From assembly GCA_021159425.1 (NCBI GenBank), contig JAGGRU010000181.1, forward strand, positions 1-11,051: a DNA stretch of 11,051 nt. Reading direction: 5' to 3'. The notes under the pieces are model-generated. The model did not search any database and had not been told where the DNA came from. It saw only the letters and a list, made by a program, of their open reading frames with translations. Numbering within the stretch: the stretch's first letter is position 1; every line of letters begins with the position of its first letter. Source of the stretch: Sulfurovum sp. (GTDB lineage Bacteria > Campylobacterota > Campylobacteria > Campylobacterales > Sulfurovaceae). This document shows positions 1,066 through 11,051 of the stretch, piece after piece. Position numbers and translations under genes: made by a program.

Positions 1066-3643
1066 TTTCTTTCTTGTCCTTTTTGTAGCTCTTTTTATGT
1101 GGCTTAAAGTGGGTATCCATGCGGATAAACTAACTTTAGGCAAGTACGAGATTGACGGATTATACATTAAACTCGATAAAAAACTGACACTTAAAGCCAA
1201 TAATATCGTCATACCTAAAACCAGATCAAAAACATCACTTCAAAACATAGACAGCACTTTTGACACTATCAAATATCTTTTTACTTTTTTCCACTATATA
1301 GAGTTAAAAAAAGTTGATTATAAAAATAATGATTATCAAATTATTTTTGCAGATAATACCCTTTATGTAGGCTCTGATGAGTACGAAATAGCTGGTAATA
1401 TAGAAAGAGTAGGGCAGAGACTTGTTGCAGAAATTCCTATGTTAAAGATTAAAAAAGAGAATATCTATATAGACGGAAAACTTACCTATTTTTTGCAAAA
1501 AGACAGGCTGGAGGTTGACGGTGCATTTGATGCCTACAATATAAAAGGTAATTTCGCAGCATTTAAAGAAGACGAATTGGTCTCTTTTGCAGTTAAGAGT
1601 GATACTTTTTCTGACTTGAAGACACTTATAGATAAAACGGGATTGAGTCCTGTAATTAAAAGTTGGATCGTAGATAAAGTACAGGCAAAAAATTATAAGC
1701 TCAACTCTCTAGTGGGTAAAGGAAATATTGAGAAGGATGGATTTAAAATGGATTTTGATGCCTTAAAAGCTGAAGTTCTTTTTGAAGATGTTCAAATATA
1801 TTATAAGGAAAAATTAGCACCGGTAACAGCAGAGAGTTTTATGCTTAGCTACAAAAAGGGCGGACTCTATTTTGATTTGAAAAAACCAAAATATAAAGAC
1901 AGGGATTTAAATGGAAGTAAAGTTTCTATTGTAGATCTTATAGGTGAAAAACCTACAACACTTGTACTTGACCTGCACATAAAATCTGTCATTGACCCTG
2001 TAGTACATGAAATACTTCAAGCATATGAACTGCATATACCTGTTTCACAAAAAGGAAGTATGGCTAAAGTAGATGTGAAGATAGATATTCCATTAGTAGA
2101 ATCCAGTAAAGAAACTTCCGTATTTGTCAATGTTGACCTGGAAGAAGGCGATGTAACTATTAACAATATAAAACTGCCGGTACTTAAAGGAAATGTACAA
2201 TATGACAAAGGTGTGGTAACACTTAAAAATGTTGATATCAAAGATGAGTGGTATGCAGCCATAGTAAGTGGGAAAGTGTATCTTCAGAACAAAAAAGCTG
2301 ACTTGAAATTAAACGTTGATCGTTTAAGTTTAAGTGCTAAGAAAGAAAAATTCTTCAAACTTCAAAATAAGAAAAATGTAGCTCTTAAGCTCGATTATGC
2401 AGCCTATACCGTTGACATACCAGACCTCAATGTAAAGATTATTAAAAGGGACAAAGAGTATACGATCAAACTAATGAATTTAAAAACAATCAAGCCTTAT
2501 TTGCAGAATATGGAGATTGAAGTGGATGGAGGTCATCTTGACATTATGACAAAAGATTTCAAGACCTATACCTATGAAGGTGTACTGAAACGAAACATCT
2601 GCTTCTTTTATGACAACAATAATGTCTGTCATACCCAAGTACCGGCTAAGGGTAAAGTTTCTAAAAATACCTTTACCTTGCAGGCATTTCAAAATAGATT
2701 ATATGTAGATACTTACAAAGGATTGATAAAAGTAAATCGCCTCAATATTGATTTAAAAGAATTTATTGAGAGTAGAGATAAAAATAAGAAATCTTCTGCT
2801 AAAGGTAAAAAACTCACTATTAGGGGTACAAAAAGTCAATTGAGATATGATAAATACAGACTGGTAACAGATAGTTATACCATTAACGTCTCTGCGAACG
2901 GTAATATAAAAGCCATAGGGAAGTTGAAAGGTGATCAGGTATTACTGACCCAAAAAGGAAAAAATATCAGGGTTGAAGCACTTCGTATCAAAGATCAGCT
3001 TCTTCATCCCCTTATTAATTTTAAAGGTTTGCATAAGGGACGCTATACTTTTAGAGCTTCCGGTGATCCCGATAAGCTTATGCATGGAGAAATCATTATA
3101 GAAGGTGGGGTCATGCGTGACTTTAAAGCCTATAACAATACTTTGGCTTTCATCAATACAATTCCTGCTTTGGCGACACTAAGTAAACCGGGTTATTCAA
3201 ACAAAGGGTTCACTATTAAAAAAGGTATTGCAAAATTCAGAAAAATAGGAGAGCGGATCATTTTTGACATGATCCGTATAGAAGGAATTTCTGCAAATAT
3301 CGTCGGTAAGGGTGAAATAGACTTAAAGAAAAACACTATCAACATGAATATGGCAATACAGACAGCCAGGGAGTTGGGTAAAGTTGTAGGAAGTATCCCT
3401 CTACTTGGATATATTATTATGGGTGAAGATAAGAGTATGACCGTAGGATTGAAGATCACGGGATCCTTGTCTCAACCAAAGGTGCAAACATCCGCGAGCA
3501 AAGAGTTGTTGAAATTGCCATTGGATATTCTTAAAAGAACATTGCAGTCTCCTGCACATATGATTAATAAAGCGACAGAACCTGAGAAAAAATCATTTAT
3601 AGAGATTGAAAAACCTGAAATATTCAATAGAATAGCACCTTAA
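992..3643 (+). CDS. Large AsmA/YhdP-type envelope protein (AsmA-like C-terminal domain)
   Basis: This 883-residue protein has a single N-terminal membrane anchor (about residues 23-39) followed by roughly 840 periplasmic residues of alternating short beta-strand repeats, rich in patterns such as GKVYLQNKKADLKLNVDRL. The C-terminal part (about 640-850) fits the AsmA-like C-terminal domain of YhdP/TamB relatives, including GEIIIEGGVMRDFKAYNNT, GEIDLKKNTINMNMAIQT, and PLLGYIIMGEDKSMTVGLKI before a SLSQPKV stretch. By family, such proteins form hydrophobic grooves bridging the periplasm and are implicated in phospholipid delivery to the outer membrane; the cargo here is unknown. Two cysteines (537 and 546) could form a disulfide. 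ATG at 992 has AAAGG at 978-982, nine bases upstream. ATG at 1010 is the only other start that keeps the anchor but has a poor ribosome site. Either start overlaps mltG head to head. Confidence 0.85.
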   Translation: MIKTSIMFSAHTLHVLHVVLRDTLIFFLVLFVALFMWLKVGIHADKLTLGKYEIDGLYIKLDKKLTLKANNIVIPKTRSKTSLQNIDSTFDTIKYLFTFFHYIELKKVDYKNNDYQIIFADNTLYVGSDEYEIAGNIERVGQRLVAEIPMLKIKKENIYIDGKLTYFLQKDRLEVDGAFDAYNIKGNFAAFKEDELVSFAVKSDTFSDLKTLIDKTGLSPVIKSWIVDKVQAKNYKLNSLVGKGNIEKDGFKMDFDALKAEVLFEDVQIYYKEKLAPVTAESFMLSYKKGGLYFDLKKPKYKDRDLNGSKVSIVDLIGEKPTTLVLDLHIKSVIDPVVHEILQAYELHIPVSQKGSMAKVDVKIDIPLVESSKETSVFVNVDLEEGDVTINNIKLPVLKGNVQYDKGVVTLKNVDIKDEWYAAIVSGKVYLQNKKADLKLNVDRLSLSAKKEKFFKLQNKKNVALKLDYAAYTVDIPDLNVKIIKRDKEYTIKLMNLKTIKPYLQNMEIEVDGGHLDIMTKDFKTYTYEGVLKRNICFFYDNNNVCHTQVPAKGKVSKNTFTLQAFQNRLYVDTYKGLIKVNRLNIDLKEFIESRDKNKKSSAKGKKLTIRGTKSQLRYDKYRLVTDSYTINVSANGNIKAIGKLKGDQVLLTQKGKNIRVEALRIKDQLLHPLINFKGLHKGRYTFRASGDPDKLMHGEIIIEGGVMRDFKAYNNTLAFINTIPALATLSKPGYSNKGFTIKKGIAKFRKIGERIIFDMIRIEGISANIVGKGEIDLKKNTINMNMAIQTARELGKVVGSIPLLGYIIMGEDKSMTVGLKITGSLSQPKVQTSASKELLKLPLDILKRTLQSPAHMINKATEPEKKSFIEIEKPEIFNRIAP
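1077..1080 (-). promoter_or_regulatory. Ribosome binding site of mltG inside the divergent gene
   Basis: On the minus strand AGGA precedes ATG 1065 by 11 bases, slightly long but acceptable. It lies within the segment that encodes the membrane anchor of the plus-strand AsmA/YhdP-like protein, so mltG translation signals are embedded in that coding sequence. Confidence 0.4.
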
Positions 3644-3650
3644 GGAGCTT

Positions 3651-3683
3651 ATTACCTCGCTAAGTAAACACCCAAATTTTTGA
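3651..3683 (+). repeat. Left outer inverted repeat of the palindromic element
   Basis: A 33-base arm starting ATTACCTCGC, matching the reverse complement of 3886-3918 at 31 of 33 positions. The differences are T3657 opposite G3912 (wobble-compatible in RNA) and A3676 opposite C3893. It begins seven bases after the stop codon of the AsmA/YhdP-like gene. Confidence 0.9.
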
Positions 3684-3779
3684 TGCAGTGATTTCGTTCA
3701 TAGACAAGGCAGATTTTTAAAAACCTAGCCATAGTTAAGTTGAGAAAATCTAACGCAGTATATGGGCGAAAGCACTGCA
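3684..3779. repeat. Internal hairpin arm A of the palindromic element
   Basis: TGCAGTGATTTCG (3684-3696) pairs with CGAAAGCACTGCA (3767-3779) at 12 of 13 positions. Allowing two G-U pairs in a plus-strand RNA, the stem continues to 3702/3761, giving 19 positions with one mismatch. A second 7-bp stem, AGATTTT (3711-3717) with AAAATCT (3745-3751), lies within the loop. The arm starts on the base after the outer left repeat. Confidence 0.8.
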
Positions 3780-3788
3780 CCCTTTGGG

Positions 3789-3885
3789 GAGAACGAGAAG
3801 AGGCGACCTGCAAGCAAAAAAATCTTTGAATTAACCAGTTAGTACTACAGACTTTTTCACTCACATCTCACCTCTTCTCGTTCTC
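3789..3885. repeat. Internal hairpin arm B of the palindromic element
   Basis: GAGAACGAGAAGAGG (3789-3803) is the perfect reverse complement of 3871-3885, and pairing continues to 3806/3868 with one mismatch. A weaker inner stem joins 3817-3825 with 3849-3857 (8 of 9). The arm ends on the base before the outer right repeat. Confidence 0.8.
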
Positions 3886-3918
3886 TCAAAAACTTGGGTG
3901 TTTACTTAGCGGGGTAAT
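3886..3918 (-). repeat. Right outer inverted repeat of the palindromic element
   Basis: The 33-base partner of 3651-3683, ending GCGGGGTAAT. It stops six bases short of the stop codon (3925-3927) of the convergent lolC/E-type gene, so the element fills the convergent gap almost exactly. Confidence 0.9.
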
Positions 3919-3924
3919 TATTTC

Positions 3925-5145
3925 TTATTCATTCCTAAGAACAGTCAAAGGATCAGTCTGGGATGCTTTTTTTGCAGGGTAGAGTGCAGAGAGTACGATA
4001 ATAATGGACGTTCCCAATATAATGAGTCCAAAATCGCTCATGGTAAGATCAACAGGAAGTTTAGAGGTTCCATAAACATCTGCCGGCATAGAGATGATGT
4101 CAAATGTAGTGAGAAGCCATATTCCAAATCCTCCAAGCAGCGTTCCTGCTACAATTCCTGCAGAGCCTATGATCAGTCCTAATCTAAAGAAAATAGATTT
4201 TATTTCCGGTTTTGTGGCTCCCAAAGTACGCATAAGAGCTATTTCAGATCTTCTGCTCATTACTGTCATAAGCAAAGATGAAATAATGTTCAGCGAGGCT
4301 ACAAGAATGATGAGTAGTAACACTAAGAACAGTGCTTTTTTCTCCATCTCCATAGCAGCGAAGAAATTACCATTTTGCTCCCACCATCCCTCAACTATCA
4401 CTGTTTCAGGTAAAAGACTTTTGATCTCTTTGATCTCGGACATAGGATCTTCAGTATAAATGTGAAGTCCATCATAAAAACCATCTTTACGGTCAAGTAA
4501 TTTTTCAAATGCTTCCAAAGAAGTGTACATGATCGCTTTGTCATATGCTTTAAGACCAGAATCAAAAACACCATCTATTATAAAACGTTTTTGAAGGGGC
4601 ATAGTTCCAAAACCTATAGCAGTCTGTTCTGAAAAGTAGAGTGTTACTTTCTCTCCTTTAGGTGCATTCATATCGAAAGAGAGAGCATCACCCAATATGA
4701 TTCTGAATTTGCTTTTCAAGTCCCCTCTGGCTTTTTCAAATATGGAATTGATCTTACTCTCTTTGTCAAAATCTACACCATAAAGTAAAGAGCCTTGCAC
4801 AGATCCTTCATTTTTGGTAATGACCTGTGTGGTATAGTATGGAGAAAATTTAAAATGTGGGAACTTCTCTTTGAGTGTTTTTACAAGATCATCATTGACT
4901 GAATTTTCTTCAATTGGAAGTATGGTTAGGGGGTAGTTCATTACAAAAAGCTTTTTTGTGAACTCCTGCTGTGTACCATTCATGATTCCCATAGCGATCA
5001 TTAAAACCATTACCCCCGCAGCAATACCTAAAAAGGCAAGCATGGCAGAGATGAAAATAAAAGGATTCTCTTTGTCGTATTTTAAGTAGTGTTTAATGAT
5101 GTGCCTAACAAAAGTTTTGTTAGGCTTGGAGATGCTTTTGGACAT
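3925..5145 (-). CDS. lolC: LolC/LolE-type lipoprotein-releasing ABC transporter permease
   Basis: Inner-membrane permease of the Lol pathway, which extracts outer-membrane lipoproteins from the inner membrane and hands them to LolA. Its 406 residues match the usual 400-415. Topology is typical: membrane segment 1 at about 29-54, a large periplasmic domain at about 55-268, then segments at about 270-296, 321-348 and 372-392. The cytoplasmic loop SRRSEIALMRTLGA (298-310) is the FtsX/MacB-superfamily contact for the ATPase, and the C-terminus DPLTVLRNE is also typical. The start overlaps the secA stop by one base (TAATG on the minus strand), implying co-transcription and translational coupling. 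Only one permease gene is present and no LolD ATPase is seen in the window, so it may act as a homodimer like LolF-type permeases; that is inference. LolC and LolE cannot be told apart here. Confidence 0.88.
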   Translation of the reverse strand: MSKSISKPNKTFVRHIIKHYLKYDKENPFIFISAMLAFLGIAAGVMVLMIAMGIMNGTQQEFTKKLFVMNYPLTILPIEENSVNDDLVKTLKEKFPHFKFSPYYTTQVITKNEGSVQGSLLYGVDFDKESKINSIFEKARGDLKSKFRIILGDALSFDMNAPKGEKVTLYFSEQTAIGFGTMPLQKRFIIDGVFDSGLKAYDKAIMYTSLEAFEKLLDRKDGFYDGLHIYTEDPMSEIKEIKSLLPETVIVEGWWEQNGNFFAAMEMEKKALFLVLLLIILVASLNIISSLLMTVMSRRSEIALMRTLGATKPEIKSIFFRLGLIIGSAGIVAGTLLGGFGIWLLTTFDIISMPADVYGTSKLPVDLTMSDFGLIILGTSIIIVLSALYPAKKASQTDPLTVLRNE

Positions 5146-9609: not shown

Positions 9610-9641
9610 TCAAAATGCCATCCTATCAGTTAAAAGTTTAA
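9474..9641 (+). pseudogene. Orphan C-terminal gene fragment beside the AbiE operon
   Basis: A plus-strand frame is open from 9474 (just after TAG at 9471-9473) to a TAA at 9639-9641, giving about 55 residues. It starts SKKSDFLLFIDDLS and ends EGIKMPSYQLKV, with mixed and plausible amino-acid content that reads like the tail of a real protein. The only ATG near the left end (9519, leaving 40 residues) has no ribosome binding site, and no other start precedes it. Its last 32 bases run convergently into the 3' end of abiEii. I infer a remnant left when its 5' part was lost, perhaps at the insertion of the AbiE module. A small real gene or chance open frame cannot be excluded. The family is not recognised. 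Confidence 0.3.
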
Positions 9642-10491
9642 AATAATCCCTAGACCAAAAATCCAATACAGATTGGTCTCTTACAAATACTTGTATATCT
9701 TCTTTGGCTTTTTCTATATCTAAAGTATCTATTTTCTCTTTTAACAACTCTTTTAATTTCTCTTCGGTGAGTGTATCTTCCTTATTAAAATTTCCACTTC
9801 CCCAATTTCCACTTTCTTGCATTCTTTCCTGAAGATGTTCCAAGTTTACTTTTATACCTCTCTTGACATACCACTCAAAATCATACCAATCCCTTCCTTT
9901 TACTCTTGTTTTCCAGTTTCTAAATAGAACTGCATGTAATTTTCCTGCATAAAGGTTTGGTAGTGTCATTGCTGTGATATTAAATGTAGTGGGTAAAAGT
10001 AGGGTGTGTGAAGTGGTCTGAAACTTTAAAGGTGGGTTGGTATCAACTTCAAACTTTATTTTGAGTTTTTTCCCGCTATGCACACCATCCAATATATTTG
10101 AAAGATCATCTATCTCTATATCTAAGGTATGTATTGAAGTGTCATTTTTCAAAAAGGCAGATTCTATATCACTCTCTTGTGTTTTGGTCTTTTTACGAAG
10201 TGTCATCTTGATGCCAAGTGCTTCAAACTCATCTATGACATACGGGAAATAGGTTTCTATATCAAAAGTAGGGTCTTTACTTAAAAGCGAAAAATCCATA
10301 TCTTCCGAAAATCTATCTAGTCCATGAATAATACGCAGTGCCGTACCGCCATAAAAAGCAGCTTTTTGAAAAAAGCCACCACGGTATAAACCTAAAAGGG
10401 CTATTTCCTGATAGACTTCTTTAAGTGCATTTATTAACGCATCTTCACTCTCTATCTCATACTTTGAAAGCATTTGTTCTATAATGTTCAT
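9610..10491 (-). CDS. abiEii: AbiEii nucleotidyltransferase toxin (MenT-type)
   Basis: Toxin half of an AbiE system, a DNA-polymerase-beta-like nucleotidyltransferase. Relatives in this family (MenT toxins) are known to add nucleotides to tRNA 3' ends and arrest translation; AbiEii itself gives phage abortive infection. The 293 residues show the family motifs: FYGGTALRIIHGLDR (46-60), the catalytic pair in FSEDMDFSL (Asp64 and Asp66, 61-69), KIKFEVDTNPP (144-154), AGKLHAVLFR (182-191, Lys184) and KGRDWYDFEWYVKRG (198-212). The C-terminal RDQSVLDFWSRDYFKLL is also family-like, so the protein appears complete and active. Its ATG overlaps the antitoxin stop by four bases (ATGA), the usual coupling. 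The 3' end overlaps the plus-strand fragment by 32 bases. The exact substrate cannot be told from sequence. Confidence 0.9.
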   Translation of the reverse strand: MNIIEQMLSKYEIESEDALINALKEVYQEIALLGLYRGGFFQKAAFYGGTALRIIHGLDRFSEDMDFSLLSKDPTFDIETYFPYVIDEFEALGIKMTLRKKTKTQESDIESAFLKNDTSIHTLDIEIDDLSNILDGVHSGKKLKIKFEVDTNPPLKFQTTSHTLLLPTTFNITAMTLPNLYAGKLHAVLFRNWKTRVKGRDWYDFEWYVKRGIKVNLEHLQERMQESGNWGSGNFNKEDTLTEEKLKELLKEKIDTLDIEKAKEDIQVFVRDQSVLDFWSRDYFKLLTDRMAF

Positions 10492-11051
10492 GTAGCCATA
10501 TCCTTTAGCACTTTATGTAAAAATTCTACTCTCTTAGACTTAGATATCTCAGCATATTTTGTCACTATTTCCAAGTCCATATCAAACAGCTCATCCATAT
10601 CAACCCTCAAATCTTCTTCTAAAAACAGAAGCATTGCTTTTTTGGAAGCTATTTTCACACCCTTTGTGTTAAAAACCTTATCACACAATGCTTTTTCTTT
10701 TGATGCCATCATGAAGTTACCTTGTTTGGATGAAACGATTTCTACTCCAAGTGCATAAAGTGTTTTATCTATGTGCCTATAGCTAAATACGCCATGAGGA
10801 GTAGAAAAGGTTTTAGCTCTTTTGGTTGTTGCTGAAGTGACAGCCTCTACTCTCTCTGGTGTAATACCATGGTAATAGAGTGCATATTCATAAGAGATGT
10901 ACGAAGGTCCTAACAGATTGTTAGCAATGATCTCTTTTGAGATAAGGGTTTTGACATAGGGGGAATTATATACATAAAGTCCTTTTTTCAATGAAGTTAA
11001 AAGCCCTTGTTGTTTCATGTACTTTATTTTGTCGTTGATATATTTGTAGCC
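10488..11051 (-). CDS. abiEi: AbiEi-family antitoxin / transcriptional regulator (5' end outside window)
   Basis: Antitoxin partner of AbiEii. In characterised AbiE systems it is a winged-helix DNA-binding protein that represses its own promoter through inverted repeats. The reading frame runs open to the right edge, so 187 residues are visible and the true start lies beyond 11051. The ATG at 11018 is internal: the residues before it (GYKYINDKIKY) continue smoothly into MKQQGLLTSLKKGLYVYN, which is the expected winged-helix wing leading to a GLY motif. Further landmarks are LGPSYISYEYALYYHGITPE, TKRAKTFSTPHGVFSYRHI and MMASKEKALCDKVF, all typical of AbiEi. It ends MAT with a four-base overlap into abiEii. 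The promoter and operator are out of view. Antitoxins of this class do not block the toxin by tight protein binding in the studied cases (type IV). Confidence 0.85.
   Translation of the reverse strand, partial: GYKYINDKIKYMKQQGLLTSLKKGLYVYNSPYVKTLISKEIIANNLLGPSYISYEYALYYHGITPERVEAVTSATTKRAKTFSTPHGVFSYRHIDKTLYALGVEIVSSKQGNFMMASKEKALCDKVFNTKGVKIASKKAMLLFLEEDLRVDMDELFDMDLEIVTKYAEISKSKRVEFLHKVLKDMAT

Follow-up and report, generated by a model that had tools for sequence, protein, structure and literature searches.

A probable IS630-type MITE family from Sulfurovum with a structured two-hairpin core that appears to be shared with unrelated MITEs

A 268-bp intergenic element of Sulfurovum sp. (assembly GCA_021159425.1, contig JAGGRU010000181.1) represents what we classify as a new family of IS630-type MITEs, with an unusual, widely shared and apparently undescribed core. 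It lies at positions 3651 to 3918 of the window, by which we mean the whole 11,051-nucleotide stretch of DNA that was analyzed. It is very probable that the family is of the IS630/Tc1-mariner type. We also have good confidence that its core is conserved as a structure and is common to unrelated MITEs. The three-part reading of an IS630-type MITE, a structurally conserved shared core, and action at the RNA level is one that, taken jointly, we marginally favor. The comparisons presented here indicate that the core is common to MITEs of other transposon types and of other phyla, a property overlooked by the first-pass annotation of this DNA.

That annotation had described a 33-bp inverted repeat enclosing hairpins of 96 and 97 nt around the sequence CCC-TTT-GGG, an anatomy reproduced by both a repeat search and the predicted folds (Table 1). 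The two outer arms are complementary at 31 of 33 positions (94%) and are separated by 202 nt. RNA and DNA folds predict the same layout, in which a closed outer stem surrounds two long hairpins and a 9-nt mini-hairpin. The hairpin arms are present as described, but they are not simple stems, since internal loops and an apical stem-loop lie within them. Folding both strands as RNA, a check proposed alongside the original description, gave structures far below those of shuffled sequences: −118.3 on the + strand against a dinucleotide-shuffle mean of −55.6 (z −13.6), and −128.7 on the − strand against −60.2 (z −15.2). The + strand folded as DNA scored −66.3 against −24.1 (z −12.0). None of 200 shuffles was as good in any of the three cases. 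Given the TA at 3650–3651, the mobile unit would, by IS630 convention, span 3652–3917 (TTACC...GGTAA). No Rfam family reached its gathering score in the window, where weak sub-threshold miRNA-like matches fell at 3783–3892; across 12 further loci, the matches at gathering score were all to rRNA and tRNA.

Table 1. Features of the element and the evidence for each (window coordinates; folds are predictions).
Feature	Position	Strand	Evidence or remark
TA target dinucleotide, left end	3650..3651		Right-hand partner 3918–3919 now TT; TA at left in 33/40 copies, at right in 32/40
Left terminal inverted repeat (outer stem, 5' arm)	3651..3683	+	14–15/20 end bases common to autonomous IS630 element L110
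Hairpin 1, 96 nt	3684..3779	+	Fold; conserved module (model R1) at 3687–3778, 89.3 bits, the window itself being among the R1 seed sequences
Conserved internal loop, 5' side, CAAGGCA	3705..3711	+	Sequence, loop alignment
Conserved internal loop, 3' side, TAACGCAG	3751..3758	+	Sequence, loop alignment
Mini-hairpin CCC-TTT-GGG joining both large hairpins	3780..3788		Fold; helix 5 of covariation alignment
Hairpin 2, 97 nt, apparent inverted relative of hairpin 1	3789..3885	-	Fold; wobble pairs favor − strand
Apex of hairpin 2, GAATTAACCAGTTAGTACT	3828..3846	-	Reverse complement resembles hairpin 1 apex of contig C207 copy
Right terminal inverted repeat (outer stem, 3' arm)	3886..3918	-	15–16/20 end bases common to L110

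Matches to the window element occur in 34 of the 100 genomes searched, its own included; many are full length, and single genomes hold up to at least seven. These multiple copies with shared ends substantiate the earlier suggestion of an intergenic repeat family in Campylobacterota, and the family belongs to the genus that holds Sulfurovum. TA borders both ends of 27 of 40 copies, where flank base composition would lead one to expect about 30% per side. The 40 sites include three solo palindromes; they omit L017, L071, and L074, whose ends are one base off, L020 and L023, whose sites are repeated, as well as L078 and broken copies. To locate empty sites, the joined flanks of eight sites in genome G016 were compared with 41 genomes and seven matching loci were aligned. 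Orthologous sites without the element were found once for L068, five times for L069, and once for a 56-bp solo palindrome (L113), where the alignment is gap-free across the TA. No reading frame is shared among 34 copies, in which the longest stop-free frame varies in both frame and strand. The characters of a MITE are found together here: non-coding sequence of 268 bp, below the 500-bp limit for MITEs, 33-nt terminal repeats, a TA duplication that in the window copy now reads TA on the left and TT on the right, and multiple copies with empty sites. The window element went unmatched, at the sensitivity used, in collections of plasmids, phages, and E. coli genomes; the Acinetobacter relative matched five of 72,556 plasmid records over 35–39% of its length.

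Several copies are incomplete or rearranged. In the present genome, a further copy at the end of contig C53 (L087) is truncated by the contig border, with 95% identity over 44 bases, and such repeats are a probable cause of breaks in the draft assembly. Rearranged copies (L061 in G057:C159, L026 in G012:C40, L265, L266) were also observed, and the rearrangements seen comprise partial duplication of the element, replacement of its right half by other sequence, and shortening to 172 and 210 bp.

The ends of the element connect it to a known transposase family. With one mismatch allowed, the end pattern ATTACYNYACYANNTAAAYA was present in 36 of 60 genomes, and 20 such places were fetched for inspection, among them a 101-bp MITE (L109). 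An autonomous element with flanking TA (L110, genome G062) shares 14–16 of 20 end bases with the window element and encodes a 345-aa IS630 transposase (NF033545, 213 bits; DDE_3, 119 bits). The search for a transposase gene between matching ends thus succeeded, in agreement with the proposal that the element is a non-autonomous transposon. At E≤1e-20, transposases of the L110 type were detected in two of 100 genomes only and were absent from the present one (G000), an assembly that is 81% complete; an element can count as a MITE without having such a partner in its own genome. Since the ends are held in common with L110 and the transposase is rare, the element is viewed as an IS630-type MITE that mostly lacks a visible partner. 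An IS630-family transposase supplied in trans would cut at the ends and insert the element at TA, and mobility of this type is well supported by the sequence evidence.

Other arrangements of the same ends were also encountered. At contig ends in genome G005 (L114, L276), ends of the ATTACYNYACYANNTAAAYA type are followed by the apparent start of a similar transposase gene, as read from the DNA. Three TA-flanked palindromes of 54–56 bp correspond to the outer stem by itself (L111:810-863 on contig C98 of this genome, L112:719-773, and L113:676-731); they either arose by deletion or represent the form that later acquired the core. Ten loci (L096-L098, L100-L105, L107) hold the 20-base end alone, lacking a nearby partner and in many cases situated close to a gene start.

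The pattern of substitutions indicates that the structure is under selection. Across 34 copies, 97.1% of cells form standard pairs and 64 of 102 pairs change on both sides, as anticipated by the first-pass annotation if the arms covary among homologues. The covariation score was 0.343, compared with 0.131 for shuffled alignments and at most 0.082 for slid partners. The signal is stronger in 27 diverse modules, with 26 of 27 pairs changing on both sides and a score of 0.748 (0.203 shuffled, at most 0.271 slid). In these modules, the loop CAAGGCA/TAACGCAG stays fixed while the stems around it are rewritten. Alignment A1 omits chimaeric, truncated, and near-identical copies, and A3 drops four more near-identical ones. 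The 27 modules of alignment A2 derive from 179 motif occurrences, reduced to 168 by folding energy, to 42 by redundancy, and finally by eye, when 11 chance-looking and four real-looking modules (L148, L180, L193, L208) were dropped, 15 in all; as A2 was chosen by folding energy and by eye, its 90% pairing is inflated.

Non-Watson-Crick pairs carry information on the strand. Counted on the + strand as G-U against A-C, they number 20:9 in hairpin 1, 26:12 in the outer stem, and 9:38 in hairpin 2. The contrast between the two hairpins is significant (p 2e-5, an optimistic value because the copies are related), whereas the bias of hairpin 1 is weak by itself (20:9, p 0.06). Pairs were predicted on the + strand, which favors G-U, and hairpin 2 runs against that bias. 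When pairs predicted on either strand are pooled, the ratios become 126:89 for hairpin 1 and 45:194 for hairpin 2. In the 27 A2 modules, excluding columns fixed by the search pattern, hairpin 1 gives 34:18. The initial counts for hairpin 1, 144:12 in 67 Campylobacterota modules and 44:12 in 24 others, omit poorly pairing modules and include the columns fixed by the search pattern. The base of hairpin 1 holds tandem U-G steps, with UG in 27 and 33 of 34 copies.

The core is also found behind other ends. The window query matches elements with different termini, including GGG(A/C)ACCTCTAAAAA (L036, L084, L085), AGTAATGAGGCATAAATA (L029, L080), AGTGCCTAACCACAA (L030), and TGGGCACATTTAACA (L082), as well as TGAGACTCCTGCACAGTAACCACA in the present genome (contig C207; L007, L086). 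The pattern AGGGNACCTCTAAAAA, representing the GGG(A/C)ACCTCTAAAAA class, occurs in 25 of 100 genomes. One element of that class in genome G067, flanked by TTAA, encodes an IS5-family transposase (NF033581, 264 bits), and core-bearing elements of 266–268 bp with IS5-type ends were found in G063 and G099. The covariance model R1 has five matches in this genome, and the four inspected fall into three end classes: TTACC ends on contig C26, GAGACYNCTGCACA ends with a TTA repeat on C207 and C81, and GGGCATCTCTAATAACCC ends on C11. At the loci of autonomous IS630 and IS5 elements (L110, L116, L118, L262), R1 gave no match at E≤1. An earlier suggestion that the hairpins are recognized by the transposase is not supported, in view of this result and of the occurrence of the hairpins with ends of different transposase families.

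Related arrangements were observed in two genomes. In G066, elements of 161 and 329 bp (L269, L270) have IS5-type ends and a different inner hairpin, with a TAGCTACGGCTA-like or similar apex, and score weakly with the core model. A third locus of that genome (L273, G066:C31:4500-7000) carries an IS5-type end every 800 bases in at least seven units with the same frame repeated, and is either a tandem array or an assembly artefact. In G079, a 16S-23S spacer holds a hairpin 1-like module between its two tRNA genes, on the opposite strand from the rRNA (L083:1505-1617), and a second place of the 16S-23S spacer type holds the module among the matches listed.

To follow the core into other phyla, named genomes were scanned with the pattern CAAGGCA-N{27,57}-TAACGCAG-NN-TATGG. 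This returned 109 stretches, mostly from Campylobacterota, of which about ten look like chance matches. Gammaproteobacteria are represented by four strains of Acinetobacter, Methylococcales sponge symbionts, and another gammaproteobacterium; the other taxa include Desulfobacterota, an Akkermansiaceae MAG, Saprospirales and Bacteroidota MAGs, and Bacillota MAGs. Many of these names rest on MAGs, in which contamination is possible; the Acinetobacter and Sulfurimonas indica records are from isolates. Model R1, built from 27 diverse modules, matched 67 of 150 relatives at E≤1e-3, with up to at least 28 matches each. It also matched each of the 14 genomes to which 15 named loci led, with 6 to 63 matches per genome; these genomes had been chosen for holding the motif.

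As the R1 seeds had been picked by motif and fold, a second model, R2, was built solely from hairpin 1 of TTACC-type copies. At E≤1, R2 matched all 32 Campylobacterota loci with other ends or contexts, a subset from which L084, L085, L265, L266, and L271, for example, are missing, as are most of the loci from the scan of named genomes. It also matched 58 of 66 loci from five other phyla and none of 56 control loci, the control set leaving out L335 and L341, where R1 had scored. The weakest best match per locus in one batch of other-phylum loci had an E of 0.0017. Eleven of the 66 loci repeat places already counted, so that 47 of 55 distinct places match. The eight misses are L198, L245, L311, L315, L317, L319, L321, and L322; chance matches of the scan were omitted from the 66 with the exception of L198, which may be one. 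Since all these loci were gathered by motif or by R1, R2 measures likeness rather than frequency. At three of the loci missed, all in a Bacillota MAG (L315 in G161:C71, L321, L322), partial hairpin copies adjoin the match in what looks by eye like a tandem array.

The models further indicate that the core is made of two inverted copies of one hairpin. Although hairpin 2 has diverged in Campylobacterota, R2 detects it on the opposite strand in 22 of the 32 loci. In Acinetobacter, five loci give an R1 score for each of the two hairpins, one per strand, with 13 nt between them. These opposite-strand matches agree with the opposite wobble bias, which identifies hairpin 2 as a probable inverted relative of hairpin 1. 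Not every locus shows this arrangement: outward-pointing pairs were seen in a Lachnospiraceae MAG (L151, L242) and, with a weak second match, in an Akkermansiaceae (Verrucomicrobiota) MAG, and Bacteroidota and Bacillota MAGs contain single hairpins.

We propose that the element carries between its ends two facing, inverted copies of one structured hairpin, with a CCC-NNN-GGG mini-hairpin as the joint. A fixed loop on freely changing stems has the look of a recognized single strand, and the core is seen as such. It would be selected in single-stranded form, most likely as RNA transcribed from a neighboring promoter. With hairpin 2 inverted, a transcript from either side would carry one hairpin in the functional sense. 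This would suit an element that lands near genes in either orientation, which is why RNA is preferred; we consider it reasonably probable that the core acts as RNA instead of single-stranded DNA. A structured RNA, one of the readings entertained at the outset, is possible for the element, with the action of its core at the RNA level being a step that we infer. Two observations count against such a role. In a Bacillota MAG, several hairpins lie, as judged by eye, past a terminator-like hairpin that should already have halted transcription coming from that side, and the rRNA spacer of G079 has the loop on the strand opposite that of the rRNA. As for the recognizing partner, our guess would be a widely conserved bacterial RNA-binding or RNA-processing factor. 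Tentatively, MITEs belonging to unrelated transposase families, in at least six phyla, may have acquired the module, a loop-bearing hairpin that usually has an inverted partner, on account of a conserved bacterial factor that recognizes its single strand. Recognition of the loop might make insertions near genes tolerable, so that unrelated MITEs would gain from the core, but this role is a guess that we hold to be rather doubtful.

The structural evidence also has to be weighed against action as DNA. The core might be single-stranded DNA that a RAYT-like (Y1/HUH) enzyme binds or cuts as the DNA replicates, in the manner of REPs and REPINs, and would then amount to a REPIN-like unit within a MITE. 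An inverted hairpin pair in which the internal loop is fixed and a small stem-loop forms the apex would fit such a unit, strand-specific wobble pairs suit single-stranded DNA and RNA equally, and Y1_Tnp is present in 37 of 60 relatives, more often in those with an R1 match (22 of 29) than in those without (15 of 31; p 0.036). However, seven of the 29 relatives with R1 matches have no Y1_Tnp, nor do five of the 14 genomes reached via named loci, including both Acinetobacter genomes with their 12 and 22 matches; the other nine have it. Across 58 Y1_Tnp loci, there was one clear R1 match (L335), separated from the gene by about 660 bp that include another frame, and one weak match (L341, E 0.2). 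A search of 20 Y1 loci for the apex-plus-loop pattern near the genes returned a single apex look-alike. With the hairpins not flanking Y1_Tnp genes at the 58 loci, mobility of the REPIN/RAYT kind is not supported, and we regard this reading of the core as quite improbable. A non-RAYT host factor that recognizes single-stranded or extruded DNA, for example in replication or transposition, is unlikely, though it draws on the same structural and wobble evidence, on a DNA fold far better than shuffles, and on the presence of the core inside transposons of several types. No candidate protein is at hand for it. Moreover, tandem U-G steps suit RNA better than DNA in terms of pair stabilities, and such steps are fixed at the base of hairpin 1. 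It is more improbable still that the core has no function. Template switching and gene conversion in long palindromes can produce compensatory changes without selection, and arms kept alike in this way, in MITEs that are old deletion products, would covary as observed; the 54–56-bp outer-stem palindromes show that the core may be missing. Against this, the paired stems vary but the unpaired loop bases do not, the same loop recurs in other phyla and in elements whose ends are unrelated, and correction between arms leaves the opposite wobble bias of hairpin 2 unexplained.

The position of the window copy raises a more local alternative. It sits between convergent genes, 7 and 6 nt from their stop codons: a YhdP-like gene on the left, with its stop ending at 3643, and on the other strand a permease-like gene (FtsX and MacB_PCD domains), with its stop at 3925–3927. 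This placement would suit a bidirectional transcription terminator for these two genes. No T run follows the hairpins in the sequence, however, and the 37 insertions with both flanking genes called (of 40 tried, using crude gene calls) comprise four convergent, 16 tandem, and 17 divergent arrangements. These two findings lead us to reject termination as the general role of the family and make it very improbable as the explanation of the element; it may nonetheless act at this one locus without explaining the family. Elsewhere in the window, an AbiEii-type toxin-like gene (PF08843, 110 bits) lies on the − strand at 9610–11018, and a 176-aa frame upstream, which has no Pfam match, forms its partner frame; together they look like a type IV toxin-antitoxin pair.

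Small structured repeats are known from several bacteria. The bcr repeats of the Bacillus cereus group are mobile, intergenic, and proposed to fold as RNA; to our knowledge, they are confined to that one group of bacteria. They resemble the present element in being mobile intergenic repeats and are set apart from it by their description. The RUP element of Streptococcus pneumoniae is likewise a small non-coding repeat with IS630-like terminal repeats and a TA insertion site, and is described as 107 bp long, having terminal repeats of 9 bp and lacking further known motifs (PMC2229807). Compared by description, the element reported here differs in its 268 bp, its 33-bp ends, and its two-hairpin core common to other MITE types. 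The Correia/NEMIS elements of Neisseria are MITEs with TA ends and a long fold when transcribed, and RNase III cuts transcripts that carry them; the accessible portions of the two papers make no mention of a two-hairpin core with a CAAGGCA/TAACGCAG loop, a difference that is again one of description (PMC2229807, PMC10969869). REPINs and GTAG/CGTC-tagged palindromes are similar in forming inverted pairs of small hairpins, many per genome and in many phyla, and GTAG as well as CGTC repeats are listed for Sulfurovum sp. NBC37-1 (PMC3733652). The present element differs from these in its hairpins of about 95 nt with an internal loop, which lie inside the terminal repeats of DDE-type transposons and for which no link to tyrosine transposase genes was found. 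QMITE1/2 of Coxiella burnetii are also MITEs with stable predicted folds; according to the excerpts at hand, some copies are transcribed and no orthologues are reported in other genomes, and it is by this description that they are distinguished from the present element (PMC5896051). A full-text literature search, with most subscription journals outside its reach, returned no description of the two-hairpin core; the sole paper found to contain both loop sequences along with inverted repeats concerns an unrelated subject.

It is usual to define MITEs by their ends and to regard whatever lies between as leftover sequence. If one fixed loop lies behind IS630-type ends, IS5-type ends, and others, across several phyla, selection would be operating inside the MITE independently of the transposase. 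Such a core would open to testing the question of why certain MITEs spread and are maintained with no autonomous partner present, and the core model could be used to annotate many intergenic repeats that have no Rfam name. If the core is indeed a module recognized by a factor, non-autonomous transposons would have in it a general helper or tolerance signal that works whatever transposase moves them.
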